Source of the DNA: Bryoerythrophyllum caledonicum
Lineage: Eukaryota > Streptophyta > Bryopsida > Pottiales > Pottiaceae
Assembly: GCA_963971425.1 (NCBI GenBank)
Contig: OZ020523.1
Location: forward strand, 10,970,867-11,034,866
Direction: 5' to 3'
Length of the DNA stretch: 64,000 nt
Shown: one piece after another, positions 1 to 26,015 of the stretch
How the letters are laid out: every line of letters begins with the position of its first letter
Numbering within the stretch: position 1 is the first letter of the stretch
Translations under genes and position numbers: made by a program
Notes under the pieces: model-generated
Told to the model about the DNA's origin: nothing
The model's input: only the letters and a program-made list of their open reading frames with translations
Database searches by the model: none

Positions 1-299
1 TGCAATTTGGATTATTATTATTTAAGTACACATTTTTTATATGCCTGGCTTTGAATGCTCGACCGCTTTCGGTGCCGAAGGACGTGATTCGGAGAGCCTC
101 CGACTCTAAAAGTGACAGCTTCATTATTTTGATGGAGTCGGAGTCTCATTGTCTATTTGCTTGGATGTGTGATTGTATGCTTTCATGTACATGTAGGTGG
201 TGCTAACTCGGCTTGCATTCGGGGATAATGACATAATGTGAGTAGAATTCATTTCAACTTCTCAAAATTGCTTCTAACTCATGGAATTCCAATCTGTAG
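1..299 (+). promoter_or_regulatory. 5' flank and probable 5'-UTR intron of the methyltransferase-like gene
   Basis: No coding sequence is seen here. A GTGAGT donor at 238 and a CTGTAG acceptor ending at 299 delimit a likely 62-bp intron placed exactly before the ATG at 300. The 5' leader would therefore be spliced and its upstream exon lies in this stretch. A short palindrome (TTCGGTGCCGAA) lies at about 79-90. No TATA box is convincing. The transcription start is not determinable. Confidence 0.4.
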
Positions 300-3200
300 A
301 TGGAGTTTAACGAGGCGCTACGGGAAGTCACTGTTCAGGGGGACGGGGCTCCGCATAGAGCCGAGGATGTGCCTGGATGTAAGGATGTAATCGGAAGCTC
401 GATTGTTATCGGCGACTCACCTAATCAGGAAGGTGCAGCGGTTGTAGGCGGCGAGGCGATAGCTGGAGGCCTATCAAAGAGCATTGATGGTTTTGAAGGA
501 AACAACAGTATGAGTCATCTAACCGTAGATGAGGCTGAAGACGCATTCAAACTAAAGGAAAAACTTGATTCGAATTCAATCATTCAAGAGTTAAGGTTCA
601 AACCATTTTCTCAGTCTAGGTTGAAGATTCCATTGTGCAGGATGATACCTCTACCATTAGTTCGACCACTTCTGCTCTGCGATGTCAGAAGGCTGGAGTC
701 TGAGTTTGTACATGGATATCGTGAGGGTGACCGTGTATTTTATGTTTCCATTACCGACGACAATGGAAACAGTCGCCCGGTTGATGACGATATTATCAAA
801 ACTTGGGACCTCCAATGGGTGTATGAGAACGATGAATTTGAAACGGAATTGTTGAAGCATGTCAATTGGTCCCAGTTCTCTTGTAAGATGTTCTTTATCT
901 GGGACGGCAATCACAGGCATCAGGCCTGGTCAGGATATATTTCACGCATGCATTTTGCGGATCGGAAGTGGCATTACTCAGTAGATTGTATCGTATTGAA
1001 TTCCAAGGGGAGTACTGGGATTTTACTTAATGCAATGAATGACATCAATCGGTGAGTACTCTGGACACATATTCATATGCTCATTGTTTTATCATTGGAG
1101 TCTTATGGCTAGATATTAACCATAATGTTGTTTTCACTTCTAGCTCTACCGAGAACGCTCATGTGAAGACTAATCTAGTCCATCGTTTGCACCGCATCAA
1201 CACATATGGACAATTGAAGCTAACCGATTTTAAGGACCTTCTCACCAACGAAGAATATAAGTCCTGTGAGAATCGGCCTAAGACTACGGCTTGGTATCCT
1301 CTGACATCAGAGGTGTTCATCAAGTTTTTGAATCGGGTATAGTTTCATAAAGAAATTTCATTCAGATTTTGGGTTGGCCGTTTAGGTCTCCTCAATGAAC
1401 TAAATTGTTTGGTTTTCGCAGCATGAGGTTGCCGCAGCTGCAGATGAAGCAGGTCGACTCTATTTGGAGCGGACTTCTCCACAGAGCAGGACTTCTCAAG
1501 GTATTCACAACGCAATGAATGAAGCATCCGTTGCAAAGTTGAAAAGTTTCAGGACAGAATTCGACAAAATGGCAACAGTGGCTAATCCAAAGCATGGCCC
1601 CGAATTCTTGGATGCGGTCAGTTCTTCTCCACTCTCTATTTTACGTTCTGATTGAATTTGATTTCATTATATTGAGAAATCTACTGATGCATGCAGATTA
1701 ACTACCATTGGTCGAATTTTGAGAAGCCAGAGATGTCTTTAGAAAAACTGCAGAAGGTTTCGGGAACTACTGTGCCATCGCAATTCAAGGTTCGTTGGTT
1801 GCAATGGTGGAACGCTGGCGAAATGAACCGAGTTGCTCTAAGATTCCCACCTGCTCGAGTGACAGATGAGAAACTCGATGTCTGGTTGCATAAAGCGTCC
1901 TTTTGGGCTGAGGTAAGTCAGGTCGTTGCTTCAATCATTATATTAAATTGTTTGTCATAAATTTGTTGATATTGTCACTAATGTGGTTTTCTTTAATCTT
2001 TCAGTTGGAGGCCGCGGCAGTGAGAGTCGTTAAAGAGACCCTAGCATCGGAGAAGTTGAATGTGGACTGGAAAACAAACACCAATGTTGACGAGATTGCT
2101 GATTACATTGAGAAGTACCGTATCATTGTATGGGACCAAGCCTTCTACTTTATATTCAGAAAGCAAGGAGGATTTGATCGAACAACTGTCTTCCTCAAAA
2201 ATGAGGGAAATGAAAAGGCCATGCAACGACTCGTTTACCGGTATGTTCACCATAGGTGTATATTGTCTTAGTGGAATTGATTTTGATAAGTCAGCTTCAA
2301 TACTTAAGAATTTGTAGTTATTTGATTTTTGAATTTAATTCTATGAGAGATCAATTTGAATTCTTTGGTGCCAAAAGGGAGAATCTGGAGTTATAGGGAA
2401 ATTTTGATCCAAATCATATAATTGAAATGTCTAATGACCCCCCTTATTGTGTAGATATTTTAAAAGAGAACTGCAAGGCAAAGGTGTCATTGATCGAAAA
2501 TCAATGCCCAAGTTTTTTGGCGCCTGGACAGAAAAGGGTTCAATGTGTATGCTTACCGCTGCCCAACTGCGAGCGTTCAATTCTTCCGAGCACCAGTCCT
2601 GTCCATGGTACCTTGAGTGCCCTCGCAAGTTTGCTCCAGCAGACGAAGAGGAGGAGAAGGCTAAACAAGCACCACCTATTGAACTAGTTCAAGATCTCGA
2701 TGATCTTGCAGAAGACTTGACCATTTCAACTGAGCCAGTTGTAATTGTGACAAAGAAGGGTGGCAAAAAGGCTTTGGAGTCGATGGAGGGGAAGAAGAAG
2801 AAGGATCCAACAGCTGGTAAGAGAGTGAAAGCTAGCGTCTCTAAAGGAAAAGAATTGGAATCAGCCACAGTCGAAGTGGACCAGCATCATGCTCCTTCAG
2901 CTACAACTGCACCTCCATCTCAAATTGATACGGTGACCGACACTCCCTTCTACCCTCCTGAGTTGCTTTCTATCACGACCGAGGAATTTGCTGCTTCGCA
3001 GCTCTATGCCAAGAGCTTCACACGAATTGTTACACACGGGATTGAGGCAACCGTTTTACCATTGTGTACTTCCATCCCGACGCTCATTGACTTCATGGTT
3101 TCAAATCATCAACTTCCTCCAGAGTGGTTGAAAATTTTGTCCTTCGTTCAAAAGGTATTAAATTCAAACCTCTCGTATTAATTGTACTTAAATAATTTTT

Positions 3201-4618
3201 AATATTATATACATGTGCATTTTTTTCGATGATATTGTTGTTGATTATGTATGCCCTCTGTGCTAGGCTGGTCGAGGAATGGAGCGGCGCCTTGGTGGAG
3301 TTCCCAAGCGTGAGGCTTGCCTCGATCTCATTATAGCGGATATGCCAGATGGTTTGCCCATTCCTGGTTTGTCCCTTGGCCACTCAGTCATTCCAAGTTG
3401 GAATGACCTGACAGAGGACTGGTCGGAGCCAATTTTTGAGTTCGCTCGTGACACTCTCCAGGATGACGGAGCTATTGTATTCTTCCATCCTGATAATCCA
3501 ACCGTTCGAGATGCAACAGAATCTTTTGCGGAGGCCTACGGATTTGCGCCCCTCCATGATTGGTGGGACGTTAACGAGATGCATCTCACCTCTTACAAGA
3601 GTGATCAGTGCACTGTAAGTTTGACATCACATTTAATCTATCATGGGGTTCAATTTAATTTTAATTCTTCTTTCCTTCTCATTATTTCATATTTGCATTA
3701 CGCAGACAAAGCGGTTCTGGATCATTCTTTTCATCAAGACATCCTATAAAGATAAGAAGGTCCGTTCAAGGTTTTCAATTGAGAAAAACTTGGATGTCAG
3801 CAAAGTGGAGACTGACATCGTTGGTGAGGGAGTTTTCCATAATTTTTTGACCGCCAAAATGTCATTGAAGAATGGAGACGTGCCTTGGCGAGGGGCTAGA
3901 GAAAAGAGCCCTGTTCTAGTCCAAATGTTGATAGAAAGCTTCTCGCAACCAGGGCATGTTGTCCTGGACTGCAACGCATCTACCGGTAACTTCTTCTACT
4001 ATCTCTTCTCTTAAATCTTGTTCTATCCTCACTCATTTTTGACAAGTCCAATCGTGTCCTCAATGATCGTAGGTGCAAGCGTGCATGCTTGCAAGAAAAC
4101 TGGGCGCCATGTGGTTGTCTTAGAGGCCGAATCAGACATCTTTGAAGCTGTGCTTGCTCCTCTCGAATCATTAGAGGTGTCAGCGGACTCTGTGCCGAAG
4201 AAACGGAAGGAACCGGATTCTTCTGGCGACTCCCTTGTGGTTAGGCCTTCTAAAAGGGTCCCTAAAAACCGATTGAGTAAGTAAGTCAAATCCTTGCATT
4301 CTCATTGTTTTGGTGAATGTTCTATCCTACAAATTCTCATTGTTGTAGTATAATTTCTTACTTCTCTTCACTAATGTAACTACTAACAAACTTTTCTTAA
4401 TCAGTTTGGTAGATCAAATGAAGAGTCCGCCTAGCCCCATGTCTCTGCCTTGTTATATTGAGGCTATTGCGGTTCAACTCGCGGAGATTCAAACGCCTCA
4501 TCGTGTGCCAATTTCACGAGTATATGATAGTAGAGTGCACAGGTATCTTGATTTAGAGGCTGTGGAAGCTTTAGACGATGGATCTAGTGCTGGATCTGCC
4601 AGTGCTGGAAGTTCCTAA
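300..4618 (+). CDS. ParB/Srx-like domain fused to N4/N6 DNA methyltransferase-like domain, 10 exons
   Basis: Predicted exons are 300-1051, 1144-1336, 1422-1616, 1697-1912, 2005-2240, 2455-3154, 3267-3614, 3706-3985, 4073-4280 and 4405-4618. All have GT..AG borders and phases that join without a break into 1113 codons. Residues about 110-240 resemble the ParB/sulfiredoxin-like fold, with the signature DGNHRHQAW near 202-210. Residues about 250-690 are helical and unrecognised, then a lysine-rich linker (about 620-660) could be a nuclear signal. Residues about 780-1000 have the permuted beta-class methyltransferase order: motif IV first (LIIADMPDG, about 785-793), then motif I (VLDCNASTG, about 966-974) followed by a GRHVVVLE strand. 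Known enzymes have (D/N/S)PP(Y/F/W) and FxGxG here, so the DMPD and NASTG forms suggest lost or altered catalysis. ParB plus N6/N4-methylase fusions are familiar from phage and bacterial proteins; a spliced plant version is unusual. Function (DNA base modification, or DNA/nucleotide binding only) is inference. The exon model is strong, the domain call moderate. Confidence 0.75.
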
Positions 4619-5331
4619 AACACCAGGTTTGTTGGTAGGCTTACGGCTACTTCAGTATGTGGAATTTTAAGCGATTTTATTTTCGTGACCATGCCACGGT
4701 TACCATTGTTATTTCTTTTAATTTTGAAATTTATAGTGCGACTAAAAGGGCCACTATTTTTGTGTTGTAATACATTTTGTGCCGTGGCATTGTAAGTCCA
4801 AGAACTTTATTTCTTGAATTTTGAGTATTTGCTCCTTTTGATCCCACACATTTTTAATCTTGATTTTTGTCACCAGTTCTTTTTAAACGACATCCAAGAA
4901 GCTTCTTCGGTACCGAAGGTTGCTCTCACCTTTTTGTATAGTTCATTTGTTGTTTGTTTGAGTTCTCTGCCTCGTCTTGTATATATCTCAAAAATTCTAT
5001 AAACTTACTTTACTCTTAGCAGTAGTATGTGTTTTTCCACTACCCCAAGTAACGTCATTCATTTGGAAGTCATTTTAAAATCTGAGTCTTAACATCCACA
5101 AAAACATCACCATTTATGGACAGAGTCATTCATCTCCATTCATCCAGGCAATCTATCATCCATCTACATTCATCTCCCTAAACCGACGACGTAGAATAAT
5201 GGCCTAAAAACCACCATTAATCTACTTTTAATGACTTATTTCCTCAATGGATGTAGGATTCTCGACTAAATATTTAACTAAATTTCAAACAAATTTCTAG
5301 GTAATTGGCCTAAAATTTCAAAAAAAATTAC
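4619..5331. other. 3' flank of the methyltransferase-like gene, no gene seen
   Basis: AT-rich sequence holding the presumed 3' UTR, with T-rich stretches typical of plant 3' ends. A palindrome CTTCGGTACCGAAG at about 4904-4917 resembles the one upstream of the gene (about 79-90), but no inverted or direct repeat extends from it. No open frame of interest was seen. Confidence 0.35.
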
Positions 5332-5404
5332 CTCACTGCTCACTACTCACTGCTCACCGCTCACTGCTCACTGCTCACCGCTCACTGCTCACCGCTCATT
5401 GCTC
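5332..5404. repeat. short tandem repeat, 7-bp CTCACTG/CTCACCG units
   Basis: About ten head-to-tail 7-bp units alternating CTCACTG and CTCACCG, decaying to CTCATTG at the right edge. It lies just upstream of the LINE remnant. Confidence 0.85.
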
Positions 5405-5715
5405 GCATGTTAGCAACCCTGCTTCAAAATCTACCACTTCACCCCATCTAAACTAATAAAGAGTGCCCTAAGTGTTGCTAAACAACTATTTAGCCACATA
5501 ACATGCCCCACTATATGTCATACTCCTTGCAACATACACCCATACTCTCATACACTTAAAGATCCATTCATCACCCTCAACAATAACATCATCCCAAGAA
5601 ATATTCCCACATCAACCAATCCCCCTAACCCTCCACATACATACCACCCCCGCCCCCCAACATACATCCCCAAAAACCCTACCACATACCCCATTAATAA
5701 TATCATAAACCATAA

Positions 5716-8424
5716 ACATATCCAACACACAGATACAAATAACATACAAAATACCTATGCCAATGGCAACACAATGATAATACATACAATAAATGGCTCC
5801 CCCAAAGAGACCTTTTTCCACGGCATGACACCAATACCTCCACACATAACACTGAAAAATTAAAACAATACTACCAAAAGATCCAAAACAAAATATACTC
5901 ACATATCATCCTTGCCCACTATCCACAAGAACAATCCTCAGACTCAAGGTCCGTAACGCCACCCATAATTATCCCACTCTTAAACATCTACACAACAGAA
6001 TGCAACCCCGAAAATGATATCCTTACATCCTCAAACACAATTCAAATAGATAACAATCAAGCACATCTATACGAAGAAAACGGCCGACATTTACACACCA
6101 TACCCATTACCCGGCTCCAATGGTTATGGAACCAATATCATACAAAATTACAATCCCCTACAAACATTGAACCAACAACCCAACCCTTTGAAACCGAACT
6201 AATATGGCTTTACCAAAGATATAAATATCGAATACCAAAAACTGACCCCCTCAAAAATGCGCAATACACAATACCCACCCCCATTTTAGACTCACTAATA
6301 TCATCCTTTAACATCGAACACTCATACTTTTCCTCCCCGATCACATGTCCTACCAAACTAAATAAATTCTACTCACCGTACGAAAGAGACAAAATATTTG
6401 GATCCCTAGGCAAGGCCTTTGAACACAAATGGATCGGAAATGGAATAGCTCACCCCCACAACGAGAAAGACATAGAACAAGCCATACATTGGGCTAGACT
6501 TGCCGCCAAACACGATCCAAATAACACAAAAACAATCATCGTCACACCGAACAACAATTGGTACCAAAACAACAACCAACATTCAAACCCATTCCCAGAT
6601 TCCCACATCATTGCATTATTCGAAGCATACACAATACCATACGAAGAACCTAATATCCCACCCGAACTAAAAAAACCCCGAATAGAGCCATCTACATTAC
6701 AAATACTATGCGTCCATCATCAAAATCAAAACCTGGGCTCCCTAGAACAACTTGCGGAACTTACCTCCATAACAGACAATCTAGACATACAACGACCATA
6801 CACAAAACCGGCCCCACCAACACCCATACAAACCCCCGTAAACAAAAGTAAAAAATGGTCAAAATTAAACTATGACAACACATTAAACTACTCTGTCATA
6901 CCTCCCCCTCTCTCAGACTACCCAACTCATACCACACCAAAATTTAACCCCGCATACAGTTATTACACCGACGGCTCCTTTAAACCTCCGGAACAAATTA
7001 GCCCGGGCTCTTGGCGAAGAGAAAAAGCTGGCTATGGCATATATAATTCTACCAAAGAAATTAAACTAGCCAAAAGACTCCATGGACTACAAATTATCCT
7101 CAGAGCAGAATTCATGGCCATCCACAAAATACTACAAATCATCACAACAAAATACAAAAATGAACCTGCACATATATTCACCGATTGTATAAATGCACTC
7201 TACCTACTAAACACTCAAATAACACACCCAACCCTTCACAACAGTCACCCCGACCAAACCATACTAACATCAATGGTACAAATGTTACAAAAACGTACAC
7301 AAATCACAACCCTTCACAAAGTCAGAGCCCATGCCAACATTGATGGCAACGAACAAGCAGACAAACTTACAAAAGAAGGCCGAGAAAAAACACACAAAAA
7401 CGCCAAAGACCCTCACGAACATGCTCATGCCACCCCATACTACTTTCAAAAAGAAGATTGGCCTTCCAAAGAAGATACCCCCGACAAAGGCCCAATTAGA
7501 TTTCTGGGCAAATATCTCAAAAAACAAGACCTCTACAACAACCTGGATACAATCTCAGAAAATATTCCTAACATAGAAAAATGGACTAACAATAACGACA
7601 TAGACAATGAACTCTCTACAAACTTTTGGAAAAATCCCATCATCTCAGACTGACAAATAACGTGCCTCATCAAATTCCGTACGGGTCAGTACATGGGAAA
7701 CGCTCGCAAACAACTCTTCTTTGGAATAGAAAGATTCCCATCCATAACATGCCCCATATGCCCCTCAACGGACCCCGACACATGGCTTCATGTGCTACTC
7801 AAATGCCAAAACCACCACATACACTCCCTAATTGTTAAAAGACATAACAAAGCGGTATGGGAAGTCCGAAAACTAATCACCTCCTACAATGAATCGAGAT
7901 GTTTCATACTTATGAACGCCGGCACTTTTAATAACAATCCACAAGAAAACACGGTCCCCCCATGGCTACTTCCATGCTCATGTATGACCCAAAGATGTCA
8001 TTGCAACGCTAGGCTCAAACCGGACATTCTTTGTGTCAAAGGTTTACCATACAACGACCCACCACCCGAGAACATCAACCAAGACTACACCATTCAATTC
8101 ATCGAATTTACATATTGCAACGATAGATTCTCCCCGGAAACAATACAAAATAAAATAGATAAATACCAACCCCTCATAGACGACATCATTGCCCTCGGCT
8201 GGAATGTGGACCCCCTTATTGTTATCACATCCGGCGCTCATGCCACCACCTTTATCCCATCTATGAAAACTCTCGAAGATACCTTCAAGATACCCATTGA
8301 TACAATTAAAACTACCTTTAAAAATATCAATACCATCGCTATTCAACATGCCATGTCTATTTTACTGCATAAACGCAAAATCGAAAACAACCAAGTCCTC
8401 CCTGATAGGCAAGACCCCCCTTAG
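5716..8424 (+). pseudogene. LINE ORF2 remnant: linker, RNase H, CCHC, restriction-like endonuclease
   Basis: One frame is open from 5716 to 7653 without a Met codon before 7114, then resumes to 8424 after a single TGA at 7651-7653. RNase H residues are all visible: YYTDGS (Asp codon 6970), AEFMA (Glu 7108), FTDC (Asp 7183) and the KVRAHAN..NEQAD helix (His 7330, Asp 7360). The zinc motif C-x2-C-x9-H-x4-C runs from 7750 to 7806. An RHN triplet follows (7840-7848), then KPDIL (Asp 8023) and QFIEF (Glu 8104), as in the R2-type endonuclease. The stretch from about 6370 to 6660 has WIGNGIAHP, AIHWARLAA and TIIVTPNNNWY. This recalls a Dam/N6-adenine methylase fold with motif IV changed to AHPHN; that reading is speculative. 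Codon use is strongly A/C-biased, unlike the neighbouring host genes. Confidence 0.65.
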
Positions 8425-8527
8425 GAACTTCGCCACTCTGTCTCTTCCTGATTGGCTGCCTGTTTGGTTTTGTTTTTTGTTGTTTAGTTAGTTTGGTCGT
8501 GGTTGGTCGTTGTTGGTTGGTTTCTGG

Positions 8528-8664
8528 CTACTCGTTACATAGTGTCTACCCTCGAAAGGGGGAAGTAGTTCCAGTTCGCTAATTCCTTGTCCGGTGGGCA
8601 TGGTCTTAGCAATGGAACGAACAGACACTTTATTCACGCCGGTTCCCTTCGGGAACCGGCGTTC
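8528..8664 (+). mobile_element. LINE/SINE shared 3' tail, copy S1
   Basis: From CATAGTGTCTACCCTCGA to the terminal TTCTTCTTC this block is about 85% identical to the body of the 5S-headed SINE at 13466-13716. It ends in the hairpin CGCCGGTTCCC-TTC-GGGAACCGGCG. It directly follows the LINE 3' UTR, so it is read as the LINE's own tail, from which the SINE acquired its 3' half. A solo SINE insertion is the alternative. Confidence 0.7.
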
Positions 8665-8839
8665 TTCTTCTGGCCATGCAACCCCATTTGGTAACAAATT
8701 CGGCTCCTATGGGCCCGGGTTTGGTGCCTAACGCCCATACCAGTTTTTGGGTAAAATCTTATTTGGCTCCTAACCAAACCATTTGGTTACCCTCTTTCCG
8801 ATTTATCATTTTAACCATAAATTTAGTGACTCAATCATG
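8665..8839. other. 3' flank of the LINE tail, no feature seen
   Basis: Unique sequence with several GGTTACC/TTTGGTTA-like words. No coding potential is seen. Confidence 0.3.
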
Positions 8840-9748: not shown

Positions 9749-10060
9749 AATTTTTCTGTGGGTTCGGGCCATACGATGAGATGGGGGGATCTGTGGGCAA
9801 TGAGCTAGCGAGGAGGTCCTCCGTTTCGTAGAGATGGCGAAACCTCTAAACCGGAAACCTAGGTTGAAGGGTCGACGTTTCATGTGGGTCCGATGATGGT
9901 CCATTAGAGAGCAAAATTGAGCTAGAATACACGTCGTCTGCTTTGAGGAGATGGCATGAAGCTCCTTCTTCGATTTTTCGTGTGGGTCGGCGATGACGGT
10001 CCATTAGCGATGACCCTGACACCCAAGGTCCTTAGGTTTGAGGAGATGGCGTGGATGGTG
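9745..10060 (+). repeat. three degenerate tandem units of about 100 bp spanning the start of the carboxypeptidase
   Basis: Three successive blocks share a TTTTTC/GTTTCATGTGGGTC-like opening, a GATGAYGGTCCATTAG-like middle in the last two, and a GAGATGGC close (about 9833, 9951 and 10044). Each repeat therefore carries a candidate ATG in the same context. Only the last (10046) opens directly into a signal peptide. Confidence 0.6.
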
Positions 10061-12144
10061 CTCGTGTTCGTCCTCGCCGCTGTAATTCCACTTGCGTGCG
10101 AGTCGTCCTTGGAGAGCAACCCCCTCTTCAAAGCCCCTCCACTCATCACCTTCCCAAATTACACGCTCTACCACACTCTAGACACCCTCCTGGACGAAGT
10201 CAAATCCATAGTCTCCAGAAACCCTAAATCCATGCACCTCGACACCCTCTCCTCCGCAACGAAGGATGGATACAGAGCCAATGTACACACAGTCACAATC
10301 GGAAGAAACCGCACAAACTCTAAAACCCTCCGCATCCTCCTCAACTTCGGCCAACACGCGCGCGAGCTCATCACCTCCGAGCTCGCACTCCACCTCCTGC
10401 GCACATGGGCAGAGCAACCCGTGCTCTCCCAGACAGTCATCAAGGTGATCCCCATCGAGAATGTGAATGGGAGGAGGAGAGTGGAGGCCGGGGCTCTCTG
10501 CGAGCGCAAGAACGGGCGGGGGGTGGACACGAACCGCAACTGGGGGGTGGACTGGGGCCGGAAGGAGAAGGACTACGACCCGGCCGAGGAGTACCCCGGG
10601 ACCGCGCCTTTTAGTGAGCCCGAGACGCAGATCGTGCGCGACCTCGTGGCGGAGTTCCGGCCGCATGTGTGGGTGAATGTGCACTCCGGGATGGAGGCGC
10701 TGTTCATGCCGTATGATCACAGGCGGGGCGTGCCGGAGGGCCGGGGCGCGGAGGCGGTAAGAAAGATGCTGGAGGGCGTCAGCGGGAAGTGGTGTGGGGG
10801 AAGGTGTGTGGTTGGGTCCGGGGGCGAGAGCGTCGGGTACTTGTCGCACGGGACCGCCACGGATTACGTCTACGATGTCGCCAAGGTGAGTGCTGAACCC
10901 TATACCCTAAGGTTTGTTTGGTTGGAATGCGTCCTCTTCGCATTGGTTTCAGTTCCTTCTTTGGATGTGCGGTCTGGAAAGCGCTCTCTGCTCATGATAG
11001 TGAGAGTTATTTGGAATCCTGAGCCCTAAACCTGAACGCAGAATAACGTCTAAGATGTTGATGAGGTGAATGTATTACAAGGGTTACCTAAACCCTAAAC
11101 TCTGAGGCTTGTTTGGTTGGAATGCGTCCTCTTAGCATTGGTTTCAGTTCCTCGTTTGAATGTTTGGTCAGGAAGGCACTCTCTGCATATGAGAGTGAGA
11201 GTCATTTGCAACTCTGAACCCTAAATCCTAATCCTAGAGTTGACGTGGCCATGTAGTGCTTTTTAGTCGTTTGTTTGGATGTATGGTCTGGTATTCACCC
11301 TCTGCACATAAAACCCTGTACCCTAAACCACGTCGTAGATTTATAAATGGGTTAGGTCGAAACCCTAAACCACGTGATGATTCCACTCATGGAATGCACC
11401 CTCTGCACATTGCTCGTCACCTAAACCCTATTAGCGTTCCCTAAACCTGGTCGTAGATTTGCTACCCTAAACTCCAATCCTGGTCGTCGGTATGAAATAG
11501 CCATGTAGTGGGTTTTGTCCATATGGCATGGAACGCACCTTCTCACACTAGAGTCATTTGTAAAGCCACCCAAAGTTTCAGAAACAAACCCCTGTTTTGC
11601 TCCACTATACTATCCTTTCCTCACTCTAGATCAATAGAAGAGCTTGTTGAATGAAGGATGGAAGAGCTTGGTGGTCAATTGTAAAACTCTAATGCACTAT
11701 TCCGGATACCTCATTCATACACCATCGGCTTGGATTTCGGTGTGGGATGTGAAGGTGCCAATTGCGCTCACCTTGGAGATATACGGAGACGAGAAGGCAC
11801 CGAATGAGGATTGCTTCCGCATGTTCAACCCAATCACCTCCCATGAGGTGGACGAGGTGATTTCCAAGTGGACAGGCGTCTTCTCCTCCCTTGTAGAGAA
11901 GCTGCCCTCCACCGTTGCTGCTTTCAGGGAGGATTCCATGTCTGTATCGTATGAAGATGAGGAGAAGCGGAAGTTCGGGCGAGTGTGGCAGGGCATGGAC
12001 ACCATGTCTGAGGGTCTGAGGACGCAGGCTTCCTTGCAGTTCTACCTCATCCTCTGTGCTTTGTTGCTTGTCGTCGCTTGGGTGCGCTGTGGTAGATTTT
12101 GTAAGCGGGTGGGGTGGGCTGGGTCCCTCCAAGTGCACCTTTGA
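10046..12144 (+). CDS. M14 zinc carboxypeptidase, secreted or membrane-anchored, 2 exons
   Basis: Exons 10046-10885 and 11755-12144 join in phase to 409 residues. The chosen ATG gives an N-terminal hydrophobic signal (about residues 3-18); an in-frame ATG at 9956 would add 30 residues before it. The full M14 set is visible: zinc ligands HxxE in GQHARE (His104, Glu107) and His213 in VNVHSG, substrate Arg in DTNRNW (Arg164), Tyr in TDYVYD (274/276), and the catalytic Glu288 in LTLEIYG, placed correctly only after splicing. The enzyme should remove C-terminal residues from peptides, probably in the secretory pathway or at the cell surface. A predicted transmembrane helix near residues 373-391 gives a type I topology. 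Plant genes such as At5g42320 have the same DYVYD..VP..LEIYGD layout. The acceptor before 11755 has a weak pyrimidine tract but is supported by that homology. Confidence 0.85.
10908..11530 (+). repeat. diverged tandem repeats with telomere-like CCCTAAA words inside the carboxypeptidase intron
   Basis: GTTTGGTTGGAATGCGTCCT occurs at about 10916 and again at about 11109. Each copy is followed by a shared block of about 150 bp (CATTGGTTTCAGTTCCT, then CTCTCTGC, then GAGAGTYATTTG). Shorter derivatives follow around 11270-11420. ACCCTAAAC words recur between units. The 869-bp intron is far longer than most others in the window, largely because of these units. Confidence 0.7.
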
Positions 12145-22896: not shown

Positions 22897-24930
22897 TTAC
22901 TGCCTGGTTGTGAACTGCCTGAAATGAGTGGTAGAGATGAAGTGGGTACTCTGGGGGTTGGAGTGATGCTCCGGCTCCCTCTTGTGCAGCAGCTTGAGGA
23001 GCGAGCTGGCCTTCCGCTTGGCTCGGGGAGTGCCCATGGTGAGGAGAGAGTACAACGATGGCACCGCGGTGCTGACCTGCATCACGGAGGAGATGATCCG
23101 CTCGCCTCCGTTCCTGCAGAGCGCTAGTAGCACGGCGATGGCGTTCTCCCGGCCCTTGGGAGTCCCCACGCGCAGCATGCGCACCAGAATGGGGATGGCA
23201 TTCGCGTCCGCGATCGCCGTGAGCCCCTCGACGGAGCCTGCTACGAGCGCCAACACCATGAGCGCGTCGTCCGCAATCCCGCCCTCCTCCTCGCTCAGAA
23301 GCGAAACCAGGATCGTCACAGCGCCGGACTCCACAATGGAGGATTTATTCCCGTGGTACACAGCGAGGTTGAAGAGAGCAGAGGCCGCGTCCTTCTTCCC
23401 TCGCCTGGGCGTGCCGTCTCTGAGAAGCGCCACCAGCCCGGGGATCGCCGCAGGCCTCTTGCCGATGACGATCTTGTATTCGTCCACCACAGACAGAGAG
23501 AACAGAGTTGCAGCAGCGTTCTCCCTGGACTCCATGCTTCCGCCAAACCTGAGCACGTCGATGATCCGGTCCAGAGCGCAGGCGTTTATGATCAACGCCT
23601 TGTTGTTGTCGTAGATGGAGAGGTTGAGAAGCGCCGTGACGGCATTCTCCTGCGTCTTGGGATCCTTTGAGGAGAGGAGCGTCACAAGGTAGGGGATGGC
23701 GCCTGCCTCCGCTATGCACATCCTGTTGTCAGTGCCGCACTTGGCGAGGAGCCGAAGCTCGTATGCGACCTGCTTCTGAACCTCCGGGGAACCGGTGGCG
23801 AGCTTGCCGACGAGGAAGGAGGCCGTCATCTTGGTGGCTTCCAGGGCCGCCTTCGAAGTCGCCATCTGATTGTTCGGGTTGCCTTTGGAGCCCTTCTCAG
23901 GCTTGTCGAACGGGATGTGGTAGTCTTCGCACCATTGCGAGATCAGGCTGCGGAGGGCGTAGTTCGGAATCAGGTTCACGTGGCCGAGCTTCTGCCCGCT
24001 CTTGGGACATGTCGGGTGGCCAGCCTCAATCCATCGAGAGATCGATGTGCGATCGTATGTCTGGCCCGTGGCGACGATCACAGGGTCGCGCATGAGGTCG
24101 AGGGAGATTGGACAGCGGAACTCGTCCGGGGGATTCACTACGACGTCGTTTCTCCCGCTTGTGGAGACCTCGCCTTCGTCCTCCACAGATGACCCGTTGC
24201 GGGATCCGTGGCTGCCTTCTTCCATCTCTGTGACGCCGTAGAGCACGCACTTGCCGTAGCGTACGAAGCCGATGAGGTTCGTTGGAGACGCGAGCGTCGG
24301 TTCGGCGGAGTCGTCCACTTCCGCTTCGAGCCGCTGCACCTCCTTCTCGCAGTCGCGAGCATTCCTGAGCTCCAGGCGCGCGAACAGGCTCTGGAGCTGG
24401 CTCGCGTCGGGCTGCTCCTCGCGCTCGACTTGCGCCAGGAGCTCGATCACCTCCTCCGCGAGCGCGTCCTCGGCCGAGTCCACGATCAGCTTCGCGCGCT
24501 GCACCTGCATCTTCACGAGCTCCACCTGCTCGCGGACCTCGTCCGAGATCTCGAGAAGCTCCAACGGCAGCATCTCTAGCGCGGCCATCAGATTCCCCGT
24601 AATCTCGTAAAACTTCTCGGAAATCATCGTATTCCGAAAAACGTTCAAGGAGACGCTAGACTCCCTGCACTCGTTAATCTTCTCCTTGGTGCTCGTCATC
24701 ACGTGGTGCAGGTCGCGGAACGCGATGAGAGCCGACGGCGGCATCGGCGGGTTCGTGTCGCGTATCTCCTCGAACAGCGGCGACAGCAGCTTGATCCGCC
24801 TCGCCAGATTCGCCGCATTCCGCTTCTGGCACACCTGCGGCCGCTCGCACGTCGCGACCTCCTGCGCGAGCGCCACCAACGAACCCACCAACGACTGCGA
24901 CGGCACGGGCGGCGGCGACATATCGGCCAT
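22897..24930 (-). CDS. U-box/ARM-repeat E3 ubiquitin ligase, SPL11/PUB13-like, intronless
   Basis: A single exon encodes 677 residues starting at MADMSPPP. Residues about 15-230 form the helical UND region of plant PUBs. The U-box is at about 268-341 (PPDEFRCPISLDLMRDPV, TGQTYDRTSISRWI, CPKSGQKL, NYALRSLISQWC). From about 375 to 650 ARM repeats follow (GAIPYLVTLLSSKD, ENAVTALLNLSIYDNN, KKDAASALFNLAVYHGNK). The U-box recruits an E2 and the ARM domain binds substrates. Relatives PUB12/13/14 and SPL11 regulate immune receptor turnover and cell death, but the exact substrate cannot be inferred. Family members usually have several introns; this copy is intronless over its whole length, which may mark an intron-loss lineage or an old retrocopy. 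All core U-box positions look intact. Confidence 0.9.
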   Translation of the reverse strand: MADMSPPPVPSQSLVGSLVALAQEVATCERPQVCQKRNAANLARRIKLLSPLFEEIRDTNPPMPPSALIAFRDLHHVMTSTKEKINECRESSVSLNVFRNTMISEKFYEITGNLMAALEMLPLELLEISDEVREQVELVKMQVQRAKLIVDSAEDALAEEVIELLAQVEREEQPDASQLQSLFARLELRNARDCEKEVQRLEAEVDDSAEPTLASPTNLIGFVRYGKCVLYGVTEMEEGSHGSRNGSSVEDEGEVSTSGRNDVVVNPPDEFRCPISLDLMRDPVIVATGQTYDRTSISRWIEAGHPTCPKSGQKLGHVNLIPNYALRSLISQWCEDYHIPFDKPEKGSKGNPNNQMATSKAALEATKMTASFLVGKLATGSPEVQKQVAYELRLLAKCGTDNRMCIAEAGAIPYLVTLLSSKDPKTQENAVTALLNLSIYDNNKALIINACALDRIIDVLRFGGSMESRENAAATLFSLSVVDEYKIVIGKRPAAIPGLVALLRDGTPRRGKKDAASALFNLAVYHGNKSSIVESGAVTILVSLLSEEEGGIADDALMVLALVAGSVEGLTAIADANAIPILVRMLRVGTPKGRENAIAVLLALCRNGGERIISSVMQVSTAVPSLYSLLTMGTPRAKRKASSLLKLLHKREPEHHSNPQSTHFISTTHFRQFTTRQ

Positions 24931-26015
24931 CACTCCTTCCTCCTCCGCTCCTTGCAACCTCGCTGACAGATCCTATCCCTCCCTCACCTCATCCCCGTCC
25001 TCAAAAAAACCTCTAGACAACAAACCTCATCCTCCAAACCTCTACCAAACCCTACAGGAGCGAAAAACGGTCCATTCGTACTCAAATCAAGCTCAAAACG
25101 CGTCGCTCGAAAGCCTACTCCGAGACGACGAGATGCCGTTCCTAGAAATGTCCTCGGCGCCAGATTCAGAGACGGACCGCGCAAGCAAACGTCCACACCA
25201 GCGGTGGGGGGCAGCGGGGTTGCTATATGCATCCTTCAAGCAAAGCGAGCCGAAAGCACTGAATCGGGAGAGACGACGTATCAATACATCATACGCCGTA
25301 TCTCTACAGCGTCATTTGCGGCTGCGGCGCGTATGTACGCAGAACTCGCCTTTTGCGGTGCTGTGGTAATTTTGCGGCTCCTTTTTACCGGATCGCGAAA
25401 TCCACGTGCTACTTTTGACCGTGTGGTTACTTTTTCTCCGGGGCGTTTTGCCGACGGGTTCCTTTTACTCGGATATTGTACGAACGGGTTACTTTTACCA
25501 GGTTTCTTTTTACCTGGATGCGAAAGTTACTGTTTGAAGTTGGTGCCGAGTCCACCCTTGAATAGGGGTTTGTGGAATTTTTTTTAGTAGCATGCATTAT
25601 TCAGGTTCTATTGGTTGATTTAGGTAGTGCTTCTCCCAAGAGGCTCATTATTGATTGCGGCCAATGCGATTTTTAAGGTAAACATAGGGTAATTGATTTT
25701 ATTTTGTAATATTCACGTTTCTTTTTTTTTATCAACTCTAATTGGAACCAATCGTAATAAAATATTAAATTGAGCCTCTTTTTGTTCTTGAAATATCTTG
25801 AAAATGCTTTGCGTCTCCTCTACTTGGTGTACGAGGAAATAACATCACATACATCATACACAATATTTCTTGTCTTCAAGCTTCTATATTTGTATTTTAA
25901 AAAATAAAAAATAAAAAAACCATTATTACTACTTTAAATTAATAAATAAATTATCTTTTCTATCCCTCTCTCAAACCTCGCTTTCAAAAGAAATACTTTT
26001 CCTTTCTTTGGTCAC
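24931..26015. other. 5' flank of the U-box gene with short repeats
   Basis: This holds the presumed 5' UTR and promoter of the minus-strand gene. From 25370 to 25520 the words TACTTTTACC, GGTTACTTTT and TTTTTACCGG recur about seven times with CGGG spacers, partly in inverted pairs (CCAGGTTTCTTTTTACCTGG). No gene is seen to the right. Confidence 0.4.

Follow-up and report, generated by a model that had tools for sequence, protein, structure and literature searches.

What is a gene that joins a ParB-like motif to a methyltransferase-like domain doing in the genome of a moss? The question is raised by a 64,000-nucleotide stretch of Bryoerythrophyllum caledonicum (GCA_963971425.1, contig OZ020523.1, positions 10,970,867 to 11,034,866 of the forward strand; hereafter the window), which carries such a gene of ten exons. 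A sequence-only reading had taken it for a captured prokaryotic modification gene, kept under constraint by the plant while catalysis was lost or changed and perhaps now a DNA- or cofactor-binding regulator. That reading saw the gene alone, and the window starts inside a multicopy transposon that is invisible from the window letters. We here report that the gene is the second (accessory) gene of a two-gene, multicopy DNA transposon of about 15 kb. By analogy with the VANC proteins of Arabidopsis, its product may bind palindromes of its own family and keep the element expressed or mobile despite host methylation, with catalysis lost or altered, a proposal to which we give an even chance.

The element extends beyond the left edge of the window; that outer part holds the transposase-like gene, encoded on the minus strand, and an insertion of about 8 kb nested in the element. 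The match to the copies on C3 and on C12 continues well to the left of the window's edge, and both the C12 copy and L017 end at window position 5421, a point that the stretch taken for C3 does not reach; the C12 copy is a 14,835-bp element that lacks the nested insertion of the window copy. The element ends are inverted repeats (CAACGACGCTAGCATG.. and ..CATGTTAGCAACCCTG) with GTGAGCA-type tandem units. They are bordered by target duplications of 9 bp with one mismatch in the window copy (CTTCAAAAC versus CTTCAAAAT), 10 bp in the C12 copy (TTGTTGCTGG) and 9 bp in family C (CCTTGATGG; left side fully read only in the near-identical second copy L022). Mutator-like (MULE) transposons make target duplications of 9-11 bp, a range that includes the 9-10 bp found here together with inverted ends. 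Four families (A, C, D and E) carry both genes. The parts of the element's right-hand side that lie in the window are:

1..5421, plus strand: right-hand part of the DNA transposon, the rest lying upstream, to about -17445.
5332..5421: right terminal inverted repeat; its 7-bp tandem units occupy 5332-5404 and the element ends at 5421.
5422..5430: right target-site duplication CTTCAAAAT; its left counterpart CTTCAAAAC is located upstream of the window.

The other gene of the element, on the opposite strand and divergent from the methyltransferase-like gene, has two exons and encodes a transposase-like protein of 1157 amino acids. Asp515, Asp581, Cys610 and His613 of this protein are invariant among three families, and its C-terminus carries CxC...CxH, which we take to resemble a SWIM finger. 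Relatives in families C, D and E are 71, 47 and 46% identical (D over the first exon). When 51 of the 147 transposase-like matches were compared with 65 of the 150 exon-1 matches of the methyltransferase-like gene, 33 gene pairs lay within 25 kb and all 33 were divergent, with 18 transposase-like and 32 exon-1 matches left without a listed partner. No convincing Pfam match was found for the transposase-like protein, the MULE transposase domain PF10551 matched none of three such proteins, and comparison with one canonical MULE protein gave nothing (a weak test, one of four MULE loci having given a usable reading). The layout resembles that of Mutator-like transposases, and the superfamily assignment stays a likeness. 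Two PDB matches of the protein, at E 0.005 and 0.5, were unrelated in appearance and were judged to be chance.

The nested insertion (about -15735 to -7732; L029/L009) contains large inverted and other repeats and, on the other strand, stretches that resemble parts of the transposase-like protein with a similarity of 26-40%; it is possibly a distant relative of the element that inserted into it. Two family C copies about 40 kb apart (C12:16445498 and C12:16485329) have equal scores and, as far as read, the same left flank, which suggests a segmental duplication or an assembly repeat. A third family C copy with the same score lies on C879.

The gene model of the earlier reading was reproduced: the ten exons join to 1113 codons and a stop, with no internal stop and GT..AG borders at all nine introns. 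Copy searches covered this one plant genome, a 437-Mb assembly in which 1777 first-look candidates for exon 1 led to 150 scored matches, with 98% identity in four of these. The same assembly gives 58 matches to the chlorophyll a/b-binding family, and the one that was read resembles a streptophyte form. Among nine other copies compared, four (L010, L016, L017 and L019) have canonical splice sites and a frame without premature stops or frame-breaking indels, and five (L012, L013, L014, L015 and L018) are broken by such stops or indels. The gene and its parts, all on the plus strand, are:

300..4618: ten-exon gene for a 1113-amino-acid ParB-like and methyltransferase-like accessory protein.
300-1051, 1144-1336, 1422-1616, 1697-1912, 2005-2240, 2455-3154, 3267-3614, 3706-3985, 4073-4280, 4405-4618: exons.
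300..1051: exon 1, with the putative ParB-like region (amino acids 80-250).
903..917: DGNHR motif, residues 202-206.
2455..3154: exon 6, coding for a middle region that contains a charged linker.
3267..3985: N6_N4_Mtase-like domain by profile matches, exons 7-8, running on into exon 9.
3327..3353: motif IV position LIIADMPDG, residues 785-793, aligned by profile on CcrM DLIFADPPYN.
3961..3985: motif I position VLDCNASTG, residues 966-974, the last codon finished by exon 9.

By profile and motif order, the C-terminal domain is a relative of the beta-class N6/N4 methyltransferases. Pfam PF01555 matches the window protein with 39 bits against a cut-off of 26.7 (E 1.1e-9) and is listed for all four family members (listing at E up to 10; best 1.1e-9), and motif IV precedes motif I in the protein, which is the beta-class order that the sequence-only reading had recognized. 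Active beta-class N6/N4 enzymes have (D/N/S)PP(Y/F/W) as motif IV, a pattern found neither in the window nor in any of the 18 loci read. In all of these DPPY has become D[MI]P[DNE]G, with the first proline and the aromatic residue missing, which supports the altered catalytic motif noted earlier. A four-row family profile finds CcrM (PDB 6pbd) at E 5.3e-9 and aligns DLILADIPDG on DLIFADPPYN and VVLDCNASTG on VILDPFFGVG. The likeness to CcrM covers motif order and the overall domain, whereas the moss protein differs in motif IV, in a degenerate FxGxG (by the CcrM alignment, the window has serine where the GxG of motif I begins with glycine) and in the long N-terminal part joined to the domain. 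Since the four-family alignment shows no change at Asp968, Gly974, Lys947 and Glu991, a cofactor pocket may be preserved. PADLOC models matched chiefly type II methyltransferases, in the C-terminal part of the protein. A tblastn search of phages with the domain matched 200 records, of which the 20 listed are 18-42% identical and are phage methylases where annotated. Pattern scans of IMG/VR and GTDB contigs for a viral or prokaryotic donor (46 and 27 pattern matches) confirmed no relative.

The ratio of nonsynonymous to synonymous divergence (dN/dS) indicates purifying selection between transposon subfamilies. Between the window copy and subfamily B (L016) it is 0.275 overall, 0.193 in the ParB-like region and 0.238 in the methyltransferase region, at a synonymous divergence (dS) of 0.131 and an intron divergence of 0.145. 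The constraint proposed earlier holds between subfamilies but varies among close copies: subfamily A pairs (window copy, L010 and L013) give 0.52, 1.19 and 0.89 on few changes, and close pairs of subfamily B give 0.32 and 0.08 on 15 and 9 changes. By these ratios subfamily A looks like a gene that is under selection from one round of transposition to the next and decays once inserted; the B pairs are too alike for judgement. For 72 codons of the first 79 residues, the comparison of subfamilies A and B gives a dN/dS of 1.68 (18.5 versus 3.5 changes), which suggests a relaxed or fast-changing N-terminus.

Palindromic sites recur in the noncoding DNA of the element. The repeats between the two divergent genes contain CTTCGGTGCCGAAG, and in the C12 element 6 exact sites, or 10 when up to one mismatch is allowed, lie outside both gene spans. 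The remaining 58.6 kb of the window contain no A-type site even at two mismatches, and no TCGG-N2-CCGA. Within the window part of the element, two sites are:

67..80: palindromic site TTTCGG-TG-CCGAAG, upstream of the gene; it belongs to a series with further members to the left of the window.
4905..4918: palindromic site CTTCGG-TA-CCGAAG, near the element's right end.

The family C palindrome is CCTCGGTACCGAGG. We scanned all four-base arms with spacers of 0-4 in the noncoding DNA of families A, C, D and E, and found TCGG-N2-CCGA 8 times in A, 7 times in C and 9 times in E, with about 0.06 expected in each. TCGG was the sole arm seen at least four times at spacer 2; a few other arms reached four, and where further arms were strong in A and C (TTCG and CTCG at spacer 4; CGGT at spacer 0), they represent these same sites read in a different register. 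The outer bases of the palindromes vary by family and the core is common to A, C and E. Most sites are found in the stretch that separates the two divergent genes (9 of 11 for family A and 5 of the 8 shown for family C), sites also occur near both element ends, and one extra family C site is inside a gene span, in an intron by position. Palindrome clusters in four regions were each set against 60 random sequences; a motif of its own family is enriched in the noncoding DNA of A and C, and also, less strongly by random sequences, in that of E.

Genome-wide, the A-type CTTCGGTRCCGAAG gave 64 and 59 matches on the two strands (1 and 3 for the reversed control) and the C-type CCTCGGTACCGAGG gave 300 and 300 (0 and 0). 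When palindrome places were tested against 61 exon-1 places within 12 kb, 53 of 78 distinct listed A-type places fell near copies of A/B (chance 0.13%) and a single one near a copy of C-type, and 18 of 50 listed C-type places fell near C-type copies (chance 0.2%) and none near A. One derivative element, L038 (C1:26355600-26357800), carries an A-type and a C-type palindrome 132 bp apart.

The symmetry of the palindromes suggests dimer targets. Their outer bases change by family while the core is kept, between the divergent genes and near the ends, which suggests that the binder is encoded by the element and evolves together with its sites. As the reader of these sites the accessory protein is tentatively favoured over the transposase, because the terminal repeats are the natural target of the latter. 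The earlier idea of a DNA-binding regulator survives in this form and is strengthened by the palindromic sites. By analogy, we infer that the accessory protein acts much as VANC does, as a regulator or anti-silencing factor that recognizes specific sequences and whose catalysis is atypical or lost. A dimer would sit on TCGG-N2-CCGA palindromes, probably through its N-terminal half, and would coat or mark promoter regions and subterminal DNA in elements of its own family; the element would thereby stay expressed or mobile despite host methylation, as VANDAL elements do with their VANC proteins. The main role of the methyltransferase fold would be to bind cofactor or DNA, normal base methylation being lost or altered. 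The elements show the CpG decay expected under host 5-methylcytosine: across four copies compared with C12, 87 of 722 noncoding CpGs had changed, against 416 of 23299 noncoding bases.

Several results weigh against this proposal. The N-terminal region at amino acids 80-250 is well conserved, and its DGNHR, which the sequence-only reading had placed near residue 202, is invariant in the four-family alignment (DINHR in one decayed copy, L015). Searches of Pfam, NCBIfam, PHROGs and PDB nevertheless gave no ParB match and only weak hits to other things, and an AlphaFold single-sequence fold of window 525-1049 alone was unusable, with a confidence (pLDDT) of 33.5. For these reasons "ParB-like" is best taken as a motif-level label, and the ParB-like domain proposed earlier is no more than suggested by DGNHR and its order. 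A tblastn search of plasmids with the region gave three matches at E 2-9, and a search for phage ParB relatives found two loci. Family D, with both genes in 10-kb pieces, has no TCGG-N2-CCGA in L026 (3.2 kb of noncoding DNA scanned); its copies (L025, L026 and L027) carry TGCCG-type palindromes four times each, which does not exceed the maximum in the 60 random sequences and was counted as negative. The family E cluster is weaker by the same method, with 5-6 sites against a random maximum of 4. Of the 50 listed C-type places, 32 are near none of the copies compared; four hand-picked stretches of this kind look like deleted or rearranged family C derivatives, because all match the family C right-end region and the 3' end of the transposase gene, and three of them reach a terminal repeat. 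The CpGs of the palindromes are not clearly spared (5 of 82 changed, versus 87 of 722 elsewhere in noncoding DNA), and per-base divergence is not lower in palindromes (13 of 574) than in noncoding DNA (416 of 23299). Finally, the reader of the palindromes could be the transposase or a host factor.

This last reading, in which the transposase or a host transcription factor binds the palindromes and the ParB/methyltransferase-like protein has another role, is somewhat unlikely. It accords with sites that adjoin both divergent genes and with family D, which has the protein without the TCGG-N2-CCGA core; the family-specific outer bases around a common core speak against a host factor, although they do not tell the two element proteins apart. 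A further reading would make the element a eukaryotic counterpart of ParB/parS, in which a ParB-like protein with a cofactor-binding pseudo-methyltransferase loads on family palindromes, spreads and evades silencing, protein and sites co-evolving; we regard it as quite improbable. Bacterial ParB/parS systems use palindromic sites of about 14-16 bp. The moss element shares with them a DGNHR-like motif and palindromic sites, but differs in the sequences of those sites and gives no detectable sequence or fold match.

The protein might alternatively be a transposition helper like mudrB that helps with integration, with choosing the target or with assembling the transposase complex, in which case the palindromes would serve transposition and not expression. 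The divergent pairing with the transposase-like gene and the palindromes kept in the four family C derivative stretches would fit such a role, but most palindromes lie between the divergent genes and outside the terminal repeats, and we consider it unlikely. The same grade applies to a self-marking enzyme in which D[MI]P[DNE]G works and N6-methyladenine or N4-methylcytosine is put on the element itself. The constraint on the domain between subfamilies and its four invariant residues would suit an active enzyme, and in the accessible part of their paper the authors of the Ectocarpus study described below propose binding and modification of the element's own sequence (PMC12477816); the loss of the first proline and aromatic residue of DPPY in every locus read, together with the serine in motif I, argues the other way. 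That the plant captured one prokaryotic gene and has retained it as its own, as first supposed from the intact frame and constraint, is very improbable, and for the window copy this reading is refuted, because the gene lies inside an element with inverted ends and a target duplication. The gene is multicopy transposon cargo, with the transposase-like gene beside it at 33 located places among the matches compared.

The surroundings of the element are mixed. Directly beside it, window 5743-8424 (plus strand) holds open reading frames (ORFs) like those of a long interspersed nuclear element (LINE), with an RNase H-like stretch by eye, and the C12 transposon copy is flanked by relatives of this repeat that match window 7691-8225 and 8242-8672. 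An M14 carboxypeptidase-like ORF at 9947-11029 (plus strand) and a U-box and ARM-repeat ubiquitin ligase at 22897-24972 (minus strand) appear by eye to be ordinary host-like genes.

As a kind, the protein is already known: transposon-borne ParB and methyltransferase proteins have been published for algae, as the accessible part of PMC12477816 shows. In the brown alga Ectocarpus, Sola1-1_Ec32 has an accessory protein of 1104 amino acids with ParB and N4/N6 methyltransferase parts. The moss protein is like it in length (1113 amino acids) and in its methyltransferase domain, and both genes lie inside a DNA transposon, giant in the alga, on the strand opposite to the transposase. The algal transposon is reported as Sola-1 type, unlike the moss element, a comparison made by description and not by sequence, and what is accessible of the account mentions neither an altered catalytic motif nor palindromic sites (PMC12477816). 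The VANC proteins of Arabidopsis VANDAL elements bind motifs of their own family in noncoding DNA, with loss of methylation (PMC5735166, PMC10398659; accessible parts). Like them, the moss gene is an accessory gene of a DNA transposon whose own noncoding DNA is enriched in short, family-specific motifs, but for VANC21 the motif is a nonamer, YAGTATTAY, arrayed in tandem, whereas the moss motifs are dispersed palindromes with a common core (PMC5735166, PMC10398659, PMC6446971, as far as these sources are accessible). The likeness is one of gene setting and motifs and not of protein sequence, so that anti-silencing is proposed here by analogy. Other methyltransferases occur in Mariner elements of viruses (PMC3627910, in part). 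In the mainly open-access literature searched, the accessible text of PMC12477816 is the only description of a ParB and methyltransferase transposon gene, and none appears in the accessible parts of PMC6431247, PMC3627910, PMC6446971, PMC10398659, PMC3493329 or PMC5735166. As far as these searches reach, the streptophyte host, the different transposase, the alteration of motif IV in every copy read and the family-specific palindromes are new.

A little-studied class of transposon accessory proteins is hereby extended to a streptophyte. Its catalytic motif is altered in every copy read, yet the domain is constrained between subfamilies, and candidate binding sites are now at hand. This makes it testable whether transposons carry methyltransferase-like proteins for self-methylation, or for binding and shielding their own DNA.

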